From assembly GCF_005434945.1 (NCBI RefSeq), contig NZ_SKCH01000022.1, forward strand, positions 1 to 59,424: 59,424 bases of DNA, in the 5' to 3' direction. A model generated the notes under the pieces. It made no database searches. It was not told the DNA's origin and saw only the letters and a list, made by a program, of their open reading frames with translations. Shown piece by piece: positions 23,888-31,238 of this stretch (position 1 is its first letter; each line of letters begins with the position of its first letter). The position numbers and the translations under genes are program-made. The stretch is from Prescottella subtropica (GTDB lineage: Bacteria; Actinomycetota; Actinomycetes; Mycobacteriales; Mycobacteriaceae).

Positions 23888-23904
23888 TCTGTCTCAACTC
23901 AGAG

Positions 23905-23990
23905 TGTCCGAGGGGGGACTTGAACCCCCACGTCCGTTAATAGGACACTAGCACCTCAAGCTAGCGCGTCTGCCATTCCGCCACTCGGAC
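23905..23990 (-). tRNA. tRNA-Leu (anticodon GAG)
   Basis: An 86-nt class II tRNA. The acceptor stem pairs GTCCGAG with CTCGGAC, with discriminator A73. The anticodon loop reads TTGAGGT, giving anticodon GAG for CUC/CUU codons. A long variable arm (GTGTCC...GGACG type) and the T loop with GTTCAAGTC are present. CCA is not encoded. The mature 5' end is at 23990. Confidence 0.95.
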
Positions 23991-24288
23991 TCGTTGTTTT
24001 CCCGCCTGTTCGCGGGGCCTTCAGTTGTTTTCGTTTGCCCCCGCTCTCCGGGTGCCAGGAAAGATTATCCGATATTGCGCCAGGTCCAAAATCGGCTGGT
24101 CAGAGGGGGTTTTTGAGCGGTATGTGCGTCGTTGTCGGGTCTCGGAGGGGGCATCGGAGGGGTTGCAGACAGTTCACGACTCTGCGTAGTTCTGTGGCTT
24201 CTCGTGTCCAACTGTTCGTGTGAGGGTTTCCTGTCGGTGCCTGCCCGTATCGTCGGCGACCCAAGGAAGAAGCGGGGGTGGTGACGCG
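23991..24288. other. Intergenic region; probably includes the left end of the TnpB element
   Basis: I see no gene here. The half near the tRNA is T-rich and probably carries the tRNA promoter. From about 24100 the sequence becomes G/T-rich (GAGGGGGTTTTTGAGCGG), which may belong to the left end of the transposable element, but no clear terminal hairpin or exact boundary could be fixed by eye. Confidence 0.35.
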
Positions 24289-25626
24289 ATGAGTTCCATG
24301 ATCCGGGCGTACCTGTTCGCCCTGGACCCCACGGCTGAGCAGGAGGCGCAGTTCCGGTCGCATTGCGGGGCACAAAGGTTCGCCTACAACTGGGCACTCG
24401 CGCAGGTGAAGGCGAACTGGAACCAACGCGCAGCCGAGGAGTCCTACGGGATCGCCGAGGCGGACCGGACGCCGTGGATCAACGCCTCCGCCTACTCCCT
24501 GCGGAAATCCTGGAACCAGGTGAAGGACGCGGTTGCGCCGTGGTGGGGTGAGAACAGTAAGGAGGCGTACGCGTCCGGGTGCGCGAATCTGGCTGCGGCG
24601 TTGAAGAACCGTCGAGACGGGCGTACCCGGATGCCGCGTTTCAAGTCGAAGCGGTCCCACCTGTCGTGCCGGTTCACCACCGGGGCGTTCGGGCTCGGCC
24701 GGGACCGGCGGCACGTGCAGTTGCCGCGGATCGGTCAGGTCCGTACACACGAGTCGACCCGTAAGCTGGCCCGCAAGGTCGAGGACGGGACCGCACGGGT
24801 CGCCTCGGCAACCCTGTCGTACCAGCGGGGTCGCTGGCATGTGTCGTTCACGGTCGAGTTGCCCGACACCCTGTCGCCCACCCGCACCGGCACCCGTGTG
24901 GCCGGGGTGGACCTGGGGATCAAAGAATTAGCGGTCCTGTCGACCGGGGAGAAGATCGCAAACCCGCGGCACCTGGACCGGGCGCAACGCGAGTTGCGGC
25001 GGGCACAGCGGATCATGGCCCGCCGCGATGGCCCGGACCTGCGCAGTGGGCGCACCCCCAGCAACCGGTGGCGCACGGCGCAGGCCAGGGTCACCCGGAT
25101 ACACGCCCGCGTCGCGGGCCGGCGTCTGGATGCGCAGCACAAGCTCACCACCCGACTGGTCGGCGAGTTCGACACGATCGTCATCGAGGATCTACACGTC
25201 GCGGGAATGGTGCGTAACCGGCGCCTGGCCCGCCGTATCGCCGATGCCGGGTGGGGTGAGATCCGCCGCCAGTTGCAGTACAAGTCCGATGCAGTCGGTG
25301 TGCGGCTCGTCGTCGCGGACCGCTGGTTCGCCTCCAGTAAGACCTGTTCCGGGTGTGGCACAGCGAAAACCAAGCTAATGCTCTCGGAACGGACGTACAC
25401 CTGCACGGTATGTGGCCTGGTCATGGATCGGGACCACAATGCCGCACGCAACCTCGCTGCCCTCGCTGGCAGCGGCACCGGGGAGTTGCTCCGGGAGCAG
25501 CCCGATGGAACTCGCGTCAGACCCGGCTCCGTGCCGGGCAGTGAGACTGCCACGGGAAGACCGCAACGCGGTCAACGTCATGTCCGTGAGGACGTGGCTC
25601 ACGGGACAGAGCTATACGTTTCGTGA
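24289..25626 (+). CDS. tnpB: TnpB (IS200/IS605-type RNA-guided nuclease), stand-alone
   Basis: A 445-residue TnpB/OrfB protein. The N-terminal domain starts MIRAYLFALDPTAEQEAQF and FAYNWALAQVKANW. The RuvC catalytic triad is intact: Asp208 in AGVDLGIKELAV, Glu300 in VIEDLHVAGMV and Asp382 in MDRDHNAARNLAA, with a zinc ribbon CSGCG and CTVCG between the last two. TnpB cuts DNA guided by an omega RNA transcribed from the 3' end of its own gene and favours transposon retention. No TnpA transposase is adjacent, so the copy would need a helper to move. ATG at 24289 is chosen; a second ATG follows at 24298. It lies between tRNA-Leu and the M20 peptidase gene. Confidence 0.92.
   Translation: MSSMIRAYLFALDPTAEQEAQFRSHCGAQRFAYNWALAQVKANWNQRAAEESYGIAEADRTPWINASAYSLRKSWNQVKDAVAPWWGENSKEAYASGCANLAAALKNRRDGRTRMPRFKSKRSHLSCRFTTGAFGLGRDRRHVQLPRIGQVRTHESTRKLARKVEDGTARVASATLSYQRGRWHVSFTVELPDTLSPTRTGTRVAGVDLGIKELAVLSTGEKIANPRHLDRAQRELRRAQRIMARRDGPDLRSGRTPSNRWRTAQARVTRIHARVAGRRLDAQHKLTTRLVGEFDTIVIEDLHVAGMVRNRRLARRIADAGWGEIRRQLQYKSDAVGVRLVVADRWFASSKTCSGCGTAKTKLMLSERTYTCTVCGLVMDRDHNAARNLAALAGSGTGELLREQPDGTRVRPGSVPGSETATGRPQRGQRHVREDVAHGTELYVS
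25581..25608 (+). repeat. Right-end hairpin / probable 3' part of the omega RNA
   Basis: TGTC-CGTGAG pairs with CTCACGG-GACA around GACGTGG, about 10 bp with one bulged base, inside the last codons of tnpB. Such hairpins mark the right end of IS200/IS605 elements and the scaffold end of omega RNAs. The guide would then begin a short way downstream, near or past the tnpB stop. Exact end not established. Confidence 0.45.
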
Positions 25627-27570: not shown

Positions 27571-27625
27571 CTGCGGGAGGTTGCTGCACCATCGCCCGAG
27601 TGGCGGTCGCAGTAACCTCCCGCAG
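27571..27625 (+). repeat. Dispersed hairpin element, copy 1 (terminator-like)
   Basis: CTGCGGGAGGTT pairs with AACCTCCCGCAG, and the loop carries a core shared with copies at 30495-30530 and 31185-31220: TTGCTGC, CCATCGCCCGAGTGGCG, then GCAGTAAC. It sits 10 bases after the PEBP stop. Confidence 0.75.
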
Positions 27626-27667
27626 TGGCGTCAGTGGCGTCAGTGGCGTCAGTGGCGTCAGTGGCAC
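27623..27667 (+). repeat. Tandem 9-bp repeat, five units
   Basis: Four exact units of CAGTGGCGT and a fifth ending CAC. It is non-coding, between the hairpin and the promoter at 27683, and is probably variable in copy number between strains. Confidence 0.9.
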
Positions 27668-27682
27668 CCGGTCCCGAAGTTG

Positions 27683-27712
27683 TTGCGGGACTGCAGTCCT
27701 TGCCGCTACAGT
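27683..27712 (+). promoter_or_regulatory. Sigma70-like promoter of the cassette leader
   Basis: TTGCGG (27683-27688) and TACAGT (27707-27712) are separated by 18 bp, predicting a start near 27719 and a leader of about 175 nt. AGTTGTTGCGG around the -35 recurs in the second cassette promoter at 28258-28267. Confidence 0.55.
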
Positions 27713-27741: not shown

Positions 27742-27887
27742 GCTTCACGAGATGCGGTCGCCAAGCTCCGACTTGATCGCACACCAACCCCACGGCGTTT
27801 CCGGGGTGGTTCGGATGACGAAGCGGTCCCGCACCATCCGGTGCAGGGCAAGTGCGCCCCCGTCCGCGGCGGGCATCACCGCAGGAG
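27742..27887 (+). ncRNA. Structured leader RNA motif, copy A
   Basis: 146 bases, nearly identical to the stretch at 29449-29592 and ending in the ribosome binding site (GCAGGAG) of the next gene. Visible helices are P1 27753-27759 with 27775-27781 (loop GCCAAGCTCCGACTT), P2 27783-27791 with 27803-27810 (one bulge), P3 27831-27835 with 27840-27844, P4 GGGC/GCCC 27846-27859, and a weak P5 over 27859-27873. P1 differs from copy B by compensating changes while its loop is kept. It does not look like the TPP, cobalamin, SAM, FMN, glycine or ydaO riboswitches I know. Cis-regulation of the downstream gene is inferred. Confidence 0.65.
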
Positions 27888-27894
27888 AAAATTC

Positions 27895-28218
27895 ATGACC
27901 CACACTCTGGCAGCCGACGCACGATTCACCGCACTGCTGGCCGCGAACGCGTGCCCCGTCACCTACTCGACCACCGACGTCGCCGGCCTCTTCGGCAAGA
28001 CCCCGCAGTGGGTGTACTGGGTGCTGCGCGGAGGCGTCACCCGCTCCGACGGCAGCCTCATCGAACCCGAACGTGTCGGCAAGAGCGCGCGACGCCGCTT
28101 CACCCTCGCCGACATCGAAGACATCACGGTCGCGCTCTACTACCGCGGCACCCTCAGCGGCGACAACGCCCGCCGGGTCATCGCCGCCCTCGACGAGACG
28201 GGGGCGTCCGCAGCCTGA
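27895..28218 (+). CDS. Small helix-turn-helix (excisionase/AlpA-like) protein
   Basis: A 107-residue protein with TTDVAGLFGKTPQWVYWVLR, a winged helix-turn-helix of the AlpA/MerR type, followed by a wing (GKSARRRFTLADIEDITVAL) and a helical end (GDNARRVIAALDETG). It resembles small DNA-binding proteins of actinobacterial phages and islands. The ATG follows GCAGGAGAAAATTC, the end of the structured leader, so its translation could be set by that RNA. First gene of the accessory cassette inserted between the PEBP and pyrD genes. Target unknown. Confidence 0.75.
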   Translation: MTHTLAADARFTALLAANACPVTYSTTDVAGLFGKTPQWVYWVLRGGVTRSDGSLIEPERVGKSARRRFTLADIEDITVALYYRGTLSGDNARRVIAALDETGASAA

Positions 28219-28261
28219 GTCCTGTGCCGGACAACCGGCAGGCCGCGCATGTCCGCAGTTG

Positions 28262-28290
28262 TTGCGGATGCGCAGTTACTGCGGTAGCGT
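28262..28290 (+). promoter_or_regulatory. Leaderless promoter
   Basis: TTGCGG (28262-28267) and TAGCGT (28285-28290) with a 17-bp spacer place transcription start at about 28296, the A of the next gene's ATG. The mRNA would be leaderless. The -35 context AGTTGTTGCGG matches the promoter at 27683. Confidence 0.6.
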
Positions 28291-28295
28291 GGGGC

Positions 28296-28673
28296 ATGTC
28301 CAATCGTTACACCCGCATCCGCTCCGAACTCGATCTCGCTGAATCTGCTGATGCCCCAACGGCATTGGCGCATCTTCGGGCCGTGCTCGACGAGGTGCGT
28401 CAACTGCTCGACGAGCAACTCGCCCACGCGGTCGTCGACGACGAAATGTCGCTGCGTGCCGCCGGTGCGGAGGCAGGGATGACCGAGAACGCGGTCGGCC
28501 CCCGCTTGGGCGCCACCGTGATGCTCGCCCCCTACGTCCGCCCGGACGGCCGGATCACGGCCAAGGAAGTCCAGCGGGCCCGCTACGACAAGAAGAACGG
28601 CATGCCGGCGCCCGCTCCGGCCGCTACACCGGTGTCGAAACCGATGCGGTTCACGCCGCGTCGCACCACCTGA
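28296..28673 (+). CDS. Orphan cassette protein
   Basis: A 125-residue soluble protein. The first 65 residues form a helical, acidic segment (DAPTALAHLRAVLDEVRQLL then DEQLAHAVVD). A possible helix-turn-helix-like stretch, SLRAAGAEAGMTENAVGPRL, follows, and the end is basic and Pro/Ala-rich (APAATPVSKPMRFTPRRTT). No family is recognised. The ATG coincides with the predicted transcription start. The VWA gene begins 38 bp downstream and is probably on the same transcript. Confidence 0.6.
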   Translation: MSNRYTRIRSELDLAESADAPTALAHLRAVLDEVRQLLDEQLAHAVVDDEMSLRAAGAEAGMTENAVGPRLGATVMLAPYVRPDGRITAKEVQRARYDKKNGMPAPAPAATPVSKPMRFTPRRTT

Positions 28674-28711
28674 CCGCGAAGAAACATCTGTTCCCGAAGA
28701 GAGGACCCGCT

Positions 28712-29353
28712 GTGGCCGACCTGGATCTGACCCGTCTCGTGTTCCTGCTCGATCGTTCCGGCTCGATGCGCAGCATCCAATCCGACGTCGAAGGCGGCTT
28801 CGCCGCGTTCATCGAGGACCAGCGTGCCGCCGCCGGCGACTGCACGGTCACCCTGGCCCAGTTCGACAACCACTATGAGGTCGTCTACCAGGATGTTCCG
28901 ATCGGTGAGGTTCCCGAGCTGGACCTGCAACCGCGGGGCGGGACCGCACTGCTCGACGCGATGGGCACCCTCGTCACCGGGTTGAGCGCCGACATCGCCG
29001 CCCTACCCGAAAACGAGCGTCCGGGTACGGTGATCGTCGCGATCATGACCGACGGCCACGAGAACGCCAGCCGTGAATGGACCCACCCCGCGATCAAAGC
29101 CCTCGTGGAGATGCAGACTGCCCAATTCGACTGGCAGTTCCTGTATCTGGGCGCCGACCAGGACGCCATCGAGGTCGGCTCCCGGATCGGCGTCAAACGG
29201 GAACAGTCCGTGACCTACAGCAAGGGCAAGTCCCGCGAAGCGATGGCTGCCGCGTCCGCCAACATCCGCGGCTACCGCGCCGTCAAACCCGTCAACCCGT
29301 CCGCCCCCATGCCCGCATTCACCGACGCGCAACGCGCCGACCTCGACGACTGA
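28712..29353 (+). CDS. Stand-alone von Willebrand factor A-domain protein
   Basis: A 213-residue protein that is essentially one VWA domain. It begins LVFLLDRSGSMRSIQSDVEG, giving the MIDAS motif DxSxS (DRSGS), with GGTALLDAMG supplying the MIDAS threonine and VAIMTDGHENAS the MIDAS aspartate. All metal-ion residues are therefore present, and the domain should bind Mg or Mn and a partner protein. There is no signal peptide, so it acts in the cytosol. Short VWA proteins of this type occur in actinobacterial islands and phages. The neighbouring hydrolase, under the same kind of RNA leader, is a possible partner. GTG start with GAAGAGAGGA upstream. Confidence 0.85.
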   Translation: MADLDLTRLVFLLDRSGSMRSIQSDVEGGFAAFIEDQRAAAGDCTVTLAQFDNHYEVVYQDVPIGEVPELDLQPRGGTALLDAMGTLVTGLSADIAALPENERPGTVIVAIMTDGHENASREWTHPAIKALVEMQTAQFDWQFLYLGADQDAIEVGSRIGVKREQSVTYSKGKSREAMAAASANIRGYRAVKPVNPSAPMPAFTDAQRADLDD

Positions 29354-29448
29354 GCGCGACGCCCTCACCTGCAGCACCCTGCGCAGACGCGTGCCTGCAG
29401 GTGGGGAACCGGGCCGGCCGTCGTGCACCGATTCCTACGATTGAACAC

Positions 29449-29592
29449 GCTTCACGAGATGCAGCGCCAAGCTCCGACTGGCTGCACACCAACCCCACGG
29501 CGTTTCCGGGGTGGTTCGGATGACGAAGCGGCCCGGCACTATTCGGTGCAGGGCAAGTGCGCCCCCGTCCGCGGCGGGCATCACCGCAGGAG
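29449..29592 (+). ncRNA. Structured leader RNA motif, copy B
   Basis: 144 bases matching the leader at 27742-27887 at most positions. P1 is TGCAGC (29460-29465) with GCTGCA (29481-29486), versus a 7-bp helix of different sequence in copy A; the one-base change on each side explains the 2-base length difference. P3 is GCACT/GGTGC with an ATTC loop. P2, P4 and the 3' GCAGGAG are unchanged. TACGAT at 29436-29441 could be its -10 box, making the motif the 5' end of the transcript. The GTG of the hydrolase gene follows 6 bases later. Confidence 0.65.
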
Positions 29593-29598
29593 TGATCC

Positions 29599-30483
29599 GT
29601 GAAAGTGTTCTACAGCCGTGACTACGTCGGCTCCGCCCACGCCTTCGACACCACCCGCAAAGCCGGGTGGATCGCCGAATCCCTGCTCACCCAACCTGTT
29701 CCCGGGGTGCAACTGACGCGTCCGCGGGCGTTGACCGTCGAACAGATCACCCGCGTCCACGACGCCGACTATGTGGACGCCGTCGTCACCGGCGCATGTC
29801 TCGATCTCGCCGAATCGCAGGGCTTCGAGTGGGATCCGGGACTCGCCCCGATGGTGCAGGCCTCCAACGGGGGCGCGGTCGAGGCCGCGCTCGCGGCGCT
29901 GCGGGACGGGGTCGCCGGATCGCTGTCGTCGGGCCTGCACCATGCCCGCTACGACTCCGGCGCCGGGTTCTGCACGTTCAACGGACTCGTCCTCGCCGCC
30001 TGCGCCGCGCAGGATGCGGGTGCGGCCAACGTGCTGATCCTCGACCTCGATGCGCACTGCGGCGGCGGCACCGCGTCGCTGATCGCCGGCCGGGACGGGA
30101 TCTGGCAGGCCGACGTGTCCGTCGACTGCTACGACTACTACGTCGCCGACGACCGCACCGATCTGGCGGAGGTGTGCGACGCCGGCCGCTACCTCGGGGA
30201 GGTCGGCCAGTCCCTGAGCCGGATCGAGCGTCTCGCCCCGAGATTCGACCTCGTGATCTACAACGCCGGAATGGACCCCTACCAGGGGTGCGCGGTCGGT
30301 GGCCTCGACGGTGTCACCGCCGACACCCTCGCCCGACGCGAACAACTCGTGTTCCGGTGGTGCCGCGACCGTCGTATCCCCGTCGCCTTCGTTCTCGCCG
30401 GCGGCTACGTCGGCACCCGCCTGGACCGGGACCTGCTCGTCGCCCTGCACCGGTCCACCGTCACCGCCGCCGCGGCGGCGTGA
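29599..30483 (+). CDS. Histone-deacetylase-superfamily hydrolase
   Basis: A 294-residue arginase/deacetylase-fold enzyme. HHARYDSGAGFCTFNGLVLA contains the paired active-site histidines and the GFC-x-FN loop. LILDLDAHCGGGTASL gives the zinc-binding Asp and His, and VIYNAGMDPYQGCAVGG the third zinc-binding Asp. LAGGYVGT is the C-terminal glycine loop. All catalytic positions appear intact. Bacterial relatives deacetylate acetylated lysines, polyamines or acetoin-pathway substrates; which applies here is unknown. It starts at GTG right after RNA leader copy B and ends just before hairpin copy 2. Last plus-strand gene of the cassette. Confidence 0.85.
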   Translation: MKVFYSRDYVGSAHAFDTTRKAGWIAESLLTQPVPGVQLTRPRALTVEQITRVHDADYVDAVVTGACLDLAESQGFEWDPGLAPMVQASNGGAVEAALAALRDGVAGSLSSGLHHARYDSGAGFCTFNGLVLAACAAQDAGAANVLILDLDAHCGGGTASLIAGRDGIWQADVSVDCYDYYVADDRTDLAEVCDAGRYLGEVGQSLSRIERLAPRFDLVIYNAGMDPYQGCAVGGLDGVTADTLARREQLVFRWCRDRRIPVAFVLAGGYVGTRLDRDLLVALHRSTVTAAAAA

Positions 30484-30486
30484 CCT

Positions 30487-30537
30487 GCGGGCTGTTGCTG
30501 CGCCATCGCCCGAGTGGCGTGCACAGCAACAGCCCGC
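30487..30537. repeat. Dispersed hairpin element, copy 2
   Basis: GCGGGCTGTTGCTG (30487-30500) pairs perfectly with CAGCAACAGCCCGC (30524-30537), and an inner CGCCA/TGGCG helix carries the shared core. It lies between convergent 3' ends, so it should terminate both. Confidence 0.8.
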
Positions 30538-30548
30538 GTCGGACGTTG

Positions 30549-31165: not shown

Positions 31166-31238
31166 GACGGCCCGCCGTGGGCGGTTGCTGCGCCATCGTT
31201 CGAGTGGCGTCCGCAGCAACAGCCCGCGGCGGGCCGTC
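31166..31238. repeat. Dispersed hairpin element, copy 3 (long form)
   Basis: An outer 12-bp helix, GACGGCCCGCCG with CGGCGGGCCGTC, extends an inner GGGCGGTTGCTGCG / CGCAGCAACAGCCCG helix, with the shared core between. It follows pyrD (minus strand) by 12 bases and fits a terminator. Confidence 0.75.

Follow-up and report, generated by a model that had tools for sequence, protein, structure and literature searches.

The closest described relatives of the RNA considered here are the SAM-I and SAM-IV riboswitches, two S-adenosylmethionine (SAM) classes of one clan (CL00012). In the accessible part of PMC6890682, SAM-IV is distinguished from SAM-I by a second pseudoknot and by the absence of P4, and SAM-I residues 6–8, 11–12, 44–47, 57–59, and 87 lie within 5 Å of SAM. 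According to the accessible text of PMC3774663, SAM-IV precedes the O-acetylhomoserine sulfhydrylase gene in Mycobacterium avium. Another relevant system is the RecA-independent DNA-damage promoter motif (RecA-NDp), printed as tTGTCRgtg–8 nt–TannnT in PMC5656591, with PafBC named as its regulator (PMC6789036, PMC8223512; accessible parts of all three papers). Here we consider two leader RNAs from a 59,424-nt stretch of Prescottella subtropica (contig NZ_SKCH01000022.1), referred to as a whole as the window. They precede genes of a cassette that encodes, among others, a protein of the histone deacetylase (HDAC) superfamily. By their sequences, both leaders are SAM-IV riboswitches of a discrete subtype. 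Members of this subtype are probably translational switches turned off by SAM, which control an apparently undescribed accessory regulon and are often also damage-inducible, with SAM as the presumed ligand and repression as the presumed direction.

Two SAM-IV leaders in one cassette

Copy 1 (27742–27887, 146 nt) and copy 2 (29449–29592, 144 nt) of the leader coincide in 137 of 146 columns of a global alignment, and their local alignment score of 126 compares with a maximum of 27 in 500 shuffles. The flanks are unrelated (identity 27–35% upstream and 20–23% downstream). Both leaders terminate with AGGAG, and the start codon follows at a distance of 7 nt in copy 1 and of 6 nt in copy 2. The original prediction, made from the letters alone, had described two near-identical leaders ending in ribosome binding sites, and these data agree with it. 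It had found no match among known riboswitch classes and suggested that the RNA may be new. This did not hold, as the Rfam SAM-IV model (RF00634, cut-off 38 bits) matches both copies over model positions 1–116 of 116, and cmscan retains SAM-IV as the best member of clan CL00012 for both; these matches rule out an unknown RNA class. The corresponding features are as follows:

27743..27860, + strand: aptamer of the SAM-IV subtype, copy 1 (RF00634, 71.0 bits; subtype model R1, partly built from this copy, 128.2 bits)
27861..27887, + strand: expression platform of copy 1, a GC-rich hairpin sequence with the Shine–Dalgarno AGGAG at 27883–27887 (from the sequence and a comparison of 44 RNAs)
29450..29565, + strand: aptamer of the SAM-IV subtype, copy 2 (RF00634, 80.8 bits)
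29566..29592, + strand: expression platform of copy 2, with the Shine–Dalgarno AGGAG at 29588–29592 (same basis)

The genome of the window contains four SAM-IV RNAs, namely, these two copies and two canonical ones (123.9 and 114.5 bits); the window copies score 71–81 bits, compared with 114–124 bits for the canonical copies. The protein encoded after the 123.9-bit copy is presumably an O-acetylhomoserine sulfhydrylase, judged from its sequence rather than from a family scan. SAM-IV is present in 188 of 201 sampled genomes of the bacterial family.

In the structural alignment, the two copies differ at ten columns. The differences in P2 of SAM-IV, the helix called P1 in the original prediction, comprise one fully compensated pair (G–C/A–T), one pair present in one copy and absent from the other (T–A), and one G–T/G–C pair; a single unpaired base adjoining P2 also differs (T/G). 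In the 3′ hairpin P5, previously called P3, and read against the Rfam structure, the pair is kept at two differences (C–G/T–G each); the other two concern a mismatched position and a loop base. Elsewhere, the sequences are the same. Hence, the changes are concentrated in stems, as had been proposed, but are not restricted to paired bases, given the unpaired base, the mismatch, and the loop position. Similarly, the segment described as an unchanged loop, GCCAAGCTCCGACT, is indeed constant between the copies, but is not a simple loop, as it contains P2b together with the 5′ strand of the pseudoknot PK1 (TCCGA, pairing with TCGGA).

The 94% identity of the copies, a truncated copy in one relative (L174), and the absence of a damage promoter at the window copies could point to a recent duplication of a decayed riboswitch that has no function in the window. 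Such decay does not agree with the fully compensated pair in P2, the unchanged sequence outside P2, its neighbor base and P5, or the Shine–Dalgarno and start codon kept in both copies, and we consider it highly improbable.

Distribution, fold and binding pocket of the subtype

Relatives of the HDAC gene were fetched from named genomes (the best 80 of 237 loci), and 15 of those 80 were scanned with Rfam. SAM-IV was found upstream in three of the 15, from Prescottella defluvii (L012), Rhodococcus marinonascens (L016), and Tomitella biformata (L007), with 65–71 bits; these RNAs are close to the window copies (mean column identity 88% over the aptamer). The covariance model R1, built from these three RNAs and the two window copies, was searched in 401 genomes of the bacterial family and yielded 43 places with at least 78.6 bits. 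When read, one of them (G330) turned out to be canonical; the other 42, including a truncated one (G110), are subtype places and come from 34 of the 401 genomes. This is a lower bound, the weaker R1 matches being mostly unread; the one that was read (G124, 72.9 bits) belongs to the subtype. In a class-wide sample, 10 of 394 genomes gave a match at E 1e-12; of those outside the family, G673 carries the subtype, and P3 marks G714 as canonical. Thus, the covariance search proposed at the outset recovered further homologs with covarying stems, and the idea is supported that the leader is under selection, covaries, regulates in cis, and belongs with the cassette, a tie that recurs in other genera.

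One genome (G316) carries five subtype copies. Four of them lie within 22 kb (L155 and L156, G316:C1:1560000-1592000), some before broken-looking remnants of the gene family c0 described below; this cluster is a local expansion and decay of the riboswitch module.

The fold was assessed by counting pairs, with the helices of copy 2 assigned as follows:

29450-29453/29525-29528, + strand: P1 (pairs counted in 43 distinct rows)
29458-29465/29481-29487, + strand: P2a (same count)
29473-29477/29516-29520, + strand: PK1 (same count)
29488-29490 and 29493-29495/29509-29511 and 29513-29515, + strand: P3 (same count)
29499-29502/29560-29563, + strand: second pseudoknot PK2 (by eye, outside the count)

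Our own count covered 44 rows (41 distinct), that is, 46 aligned matches minus one canonical (L194) and one truncated (L174); 1003 of 1011 tested cells in the 41 distinct RNAs are standard pairs. With the counting tool, applied to all 46 rows (43 distinct), 99.1% of cells are paired, compared with 91.4% in shuffles, and 14 of 25 pairs show a change on both sides, compared with 6.1 in shuffles and 1–4 in slid structures. The covariation score is 0.262 (0.113 in shuffles, at most 0.064 in slid structures). As the rows are related, the cells are not independent events, and the alignment was fitted to a P1–P3 model, so the counts lean towards these helices; PK1, which joins the P2 loop to the strand that follows P3 and is outside that model, has 99.5% of cells paired, with both-side changes in three of its five pairs. 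PK2 would join the P3 loop to the 3′ tail, and its register shifts among groups; by eye, its strands read GGCG/CGCC in the two window copies, and GCTC/GAGC is seen in other relatives.

Thus, the fold and the pseudoknot PK1 are conserved with compensatory changes. Relative to canonical SAM-IV, compensated changes are seen in P1 (CTTC/GAAG instead of GGTC/GACC), P3 (RCC/GGY instead of GGC/GCC or GCT), and PK1 (TCCGA/TCGGA instead of CCCGG/CCGGG) as well. At the same time, the subtype retains the SAM-IV set of P1, P2a/P2b, P3, P5, PK1, and SAM-contact bases, with a candidate PK2 read by eye, as far as these are described in the accessible part of PMC6890682, and it has the ligand core of the clan that includes SAM-I.

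In SAM-I numbering, with the assignment of columns being our own, pocket residues G11, A12, C44, A46, C47, U57, and G58 are kept in 41 out of 41 subtype RNAs, and A45 in 40 out of 41. Since these contact bases are kept, SAM is the likely ligand. The pair 43–59 is C–G in 41 out of 41 subtype RNAs and G–C in 31 out of 31 canonical RNAs, the latter being the best-scoring SAM-IV loci of the family sample. We take this flip as the mark of the subtype, having found no source that names 43–59 as SAM-IV-defining; it is a second-shell change.

The exceptionless flip next to the pocket, together with a gene set unlike sulfur metabolism (see below), would also fit a SAM-IV-derived riboswitch with a changed ligand, either a relative of SAM, such as decarboxylated SAM or S-adenosylhomocysteine (SAH), or a metabolite that cells produce when damaged or attacked by phage. 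This seems unlikely, given the contact bases kept in 40 or 41 of 41 RNAs and the same flip in the subtype RNA outside the family (G673), which precedes an ABC transporter of the SBP_bac_5 type. Genes regulated by SAM are often ABC transporters, and the uptake role of this one would suit SAM control.

Genes and promoters associated with the subtype

The following cassette genes were assigned in the window:

27895..28218, + strand: ATG at 27895, DUF7229 protein of 107 aa, first gene after copy 1 (PF23875, E 1.2e-26), the helix-turn-helix (HTH) protein of the original prediction
28296..28673, + strand: ORF125, a protein of 125 aa without a Pfam or NCBIfam family
28712..29353, + strand: VWA-like protein of 213 aa (PHROG 7371, E 7.9e-64; no Pfam match of its own)
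29599..30483, + strand: GTG at 29599, HDAC-superfamily amidohydrolase of 294 aa, gene after copy 2 (PF00850, E 1e-27)

Solved relatives of the HDAC protein are named histone deacetylases, lysine deacylase, and acetylpolyamine amidohydrolases. The VWA-like protein has relatives on plasmids annotated as vWA, and in four of the fetched loci the HDAC gene has a copy of it with 70–77% identity as its neighbor. ORF125 is 66–68% identical in the cassettes of Tomitella and Rhodococcus spongiicola; its predicted structure is all-helical (mean pLDDT 86), and a comparison of this model with solved structures gave 25 weak PDB matches, none with E 0.001 or better, and yields no function.

The HDAC gene belongs to the cassette of 11 intact subtype RNAs, both window copies included, with VWA, ORF125, or small proteins between in several of them. 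HDAC proteins of at least 54% identity occur in 16 of 251 family genomes, and a subtype RNA lies within the fetched 1.5-kb flank at nine of the 16 loci, in addition to Tomitella, where it lies at 1.7 kb.

The family c0 is the first gene after 17 subtype RNAs. In 251 genomes, 20 c0 places were found, spread over 17 genomes, with a subtype RNA nearby at 17 of the 20, two of these at 59–65 bits; among the three places without the RNA, one (L222) sits at a contig end. Ten aligned members share the invariant residues C, G, H, H, H, L, and C, and the one member scanned has no Pfam family. The gene after c0 at one locus (L171) encodes LexA (PF01726, PF00717). At another (L208 and L228, G249), c0 and the HDAC gene are divergent and side by side, with no riboswitch in the flanks, and so the link between c0 and HDAC does not depend on the RNA.

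Other targets include the family c3 (after four subtype RNAs), ADP-ribosylglycohydrolase (after three, one scanned, PF03747, E 2.8e-44, and two assigned by blastp cluster), TY-Chap3-like proteins (after three, one scanned, with E 2.8e-4, below the Pfam cut-off), a calcineurin-like phosphatase (second gene in one operon), and the SBP_bac_5 ABC transporter of G673 noted above. The remaining subtype RNAs precede proteins of no named family. The subtype differs from canonical SAM-IV in its target genes as well as in its promoter.

Relatives of the cassette proteins are also found in phages. Gp202 of the 142-kb Rhodococcus phage E3 (L114) is HDAC-like and 55% identical to the window protein, and among actinophages VWA relatives occur in 215 phage records and DUF7229 relatives in 207. 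These differ from the window cassette in that no subtype RNA was found in viral contigs by two sequence patterns or in phage records by blastn. Blastn gave one subtype RNA on an Arthrobacter megaplasmid, and on the basis of these searches we rejected a phage- or plasmid-borne riboswitch. Membership in a known defense system was likewise not accepted from the weak PADLOC matches (mad1 for the DUF7229 protein and ZorF for ORF125, both E 6e-4).

A TANNNT box is located 13–15 nt upstream of the aptamer in 39 of 45 subtype upstream regions, and therefore transcripts should begin at or just before P1. The following candidate elements were assigned in the window:

29436..29441, + strand: TACGAT, candidate −10 box of copy 2, 14 nt 5′ of the aptamer (by TANNNT placement in relatives; a PafBC-type −35 was not found here)
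27674..27697, + strand: candidate operator of copy 1 (direct repeat D9, 79% alike to 28253-28276, CCGCAGTTGTTGCGG, upstream of ORF125)

The upstream region of copy 1 has a TACAGT box and an operator-like repeat that is also present before ORF125; the repeat is perhaps a site of the DUF7229 or ORF125 protein. Related TGCGG repeats can be made out by eye upstream of ORF125 (L007, L037) and of VWA (L006), in relatives that have the riboswitch as well as in relatives that lack it. Tandem 9-mers GTGGCGTCA are located at 27624–27670, upstream of copy 1. Around the cassette, a 54-nt palindromic intergenic element occurs in three copies, 78–89% alike (27575–27628, 30489–30542, and 31179–31232), with the core GTTGCTGC..CCATCG..CGAGTGGCG; it is terminator-like or a small repeat family.

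Of the 45 upstream regions, 17 (from 13 genomes) match the PafBC-type motif TTGTCRGTG–8 nt–TANNNT in at least 10 of its 12 positions, always 30–32 nt before the aptamer, whereas 0.155 are expected from dinucleotide shuffles; the 45 regions include near-identical relatives and the truncated L174 and hence are not 45 independent events. P. defluvii (L152), from the genus of the window, is among the 17. The RNA of T. biformata reaches 10 of 12, and that of R. marinonascens stays below this level. In the controls, the motif was found in none of 41 farther-upstream stretches and in none of 30 canonical SAM-IV upstream regions. An 11-position form was counted in the genome of the window and in five others chosen because they have the motif: each of the six contains it 8–19 times, compared with 0–1 occurrences of the reversed pattern, and the riboswitch upstream region is among these places in the five chosen ones. 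As a positive control, a region of about 620 nt, around recA and upstream of it, was used; its best PafBC-type site has a score of 10 or 11 in all six genomes and lies 91–126 nt before the matched domain. Thus, the subtype resembles the PafBC/RecA-NDp regulon in the fixed placement of the motif before 17 of 45 RNAs, and differs from it in that the accessible parts of the literature on that regulon (PMC5656591, PMC6789036, PMC8223512) showed no riboswitch layer and in that the two window copies lack the motif. Of the two layers, that of the riboswitch is the only one seen in the window.

Elsewhere in the window, a PafBC/RecA-NDp-type promoter, CTGTCGGTG–8 nt–TATCGT, is seen at 24231–24253 (+ strand) within the open reading frame 24220–25626, 35 nt before the in-frame ATG at 24289. 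This ATG opens an IS607-family TnpB (NF038280, 483 bits) adjoining tRNA-Leu (23904–23990). Judged by this motif, the TnpB may be DNA-damage inducible.

Mode of regulation and biological meaning

According to a script, a Shine–Dalgarno-like site with a start codon is located 20–46 nt 3′ of the aptamer in 40 of 44 subtype RNAs, a few of these coming from short frames, and a run of five T is found 3′ of the aptamer in none of the 44. The latter rules out an intrinsic terminator platform, and both together point to translational control. The position of the leader just 5′ of the ribosome binding site also argues for action in cis, leaving the trans-acting RNA that had been suggested as an option unsupported.

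In the mechanism we favor, plentiful SAM would bind the aptamer and lock P1, P3, and PK2, and the downstream hairpin region would hide the Shine–Dalgarno (OFF); when SAM falls, translation would start (ON). The 3′ strand of PK2, directly before the hairpin region of the Shine–Dalgarno, could provide the route of physical coupling. In members with the PafBC promoter, expression would depend both on damage, to allow transcription, and on low SAM, to allow translation. The subtype would thus define a scattered accessory regulon comprising the HDAC-like deacetylase with its VWA partner, ADP-ribosylglycohydrolase, calcineurin-like phosphatase, c0, and c3. A switch between two mutually exclusive helices, PK2 and the following hairpin, is plausible, but is not claimed, as the tails fold differently between groups.

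The opposite direction has also to be considered. The strand L2 (AGCTCC), when unbound, may pair with the Shine–Dalgarno GGAG, so that PK1, formed upon SAM binding, would free the latter and SAM would switch the genes on. In the window copies, and in several relatives as well, CTCC of this strand is by eye the complement of GGAG, but the Shine–Dalgarno GGAAG of a Prescottella relative breaks the pairing, and L2 is conserved anyway for PK1; hence, an ON switch appears improbable. According to a further reading, the subtype is a separate riboswitch class split from SAM-IV, in which a SAM-related signal of damage or phage attack gates damage-induced enzymes that remove modifications (deacetylase, ADP-ribosylglycohydrolase, and phosphatase) and Cys/His-rich proteins, so that two alarms are needed; we regard it as rather unlikely.

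Several observations weigh against a translational SAM-OFF switch with its own regulon. The OFF direction is drawn by analogy with other SAM riboswitches, and the short tails fold into a mixture of structures rather than one clean switch. The flipped pair includes residue 59, which in SAM-I is within 5 Å of SAM (accessible part of PMC6890682), and the flip may alter the strength or selectivity of binding. No pathway known to require SAM is common to the gene products. Seven of the 16 HDAC loci have no RNA in the 1.5-kb flank; as one of these has it at 1.7 kb and one (G110) has a truncated RNA at about 1.8 kb, five remain without it (L198, L199, L201, L202, and L208). As for damage control, the PafBC motif is below 10/12 in 28 of 45 upstream regions, and the window copies lack it (scores of 6 and 4 of 12 in the fixed register).

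In the open-licence literature, we found nothing that links SAM-IV with histone deacetylase or Rhodococcus, or a SAM riboswitch with ADP-ribosylglycohydrolase. Its accessible text on riboswitches together with PafBC gave no report of the subtype, the one co-mention being a riboswitch in a reference title. Within this literature, covered largely by titles and abstracts, the SAM-IV subtype, its regulon, and the damage-type promoter seen in many of its members are apparently undescribed.

The usual view of SAM riboswitches is that of housekeeping switches in sulfur metabolism, and the subtype instead fronts accessory, partly phage-related genes, providing the first regulatory handle on the uncharacterized families c0, c3, and ORF125. 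If SAM is not the ligand, the subtype is a ready test case for a change in the specificity of a riboswitch pocket. If SAM is the ligand, the SAM level gates part of a damage response.

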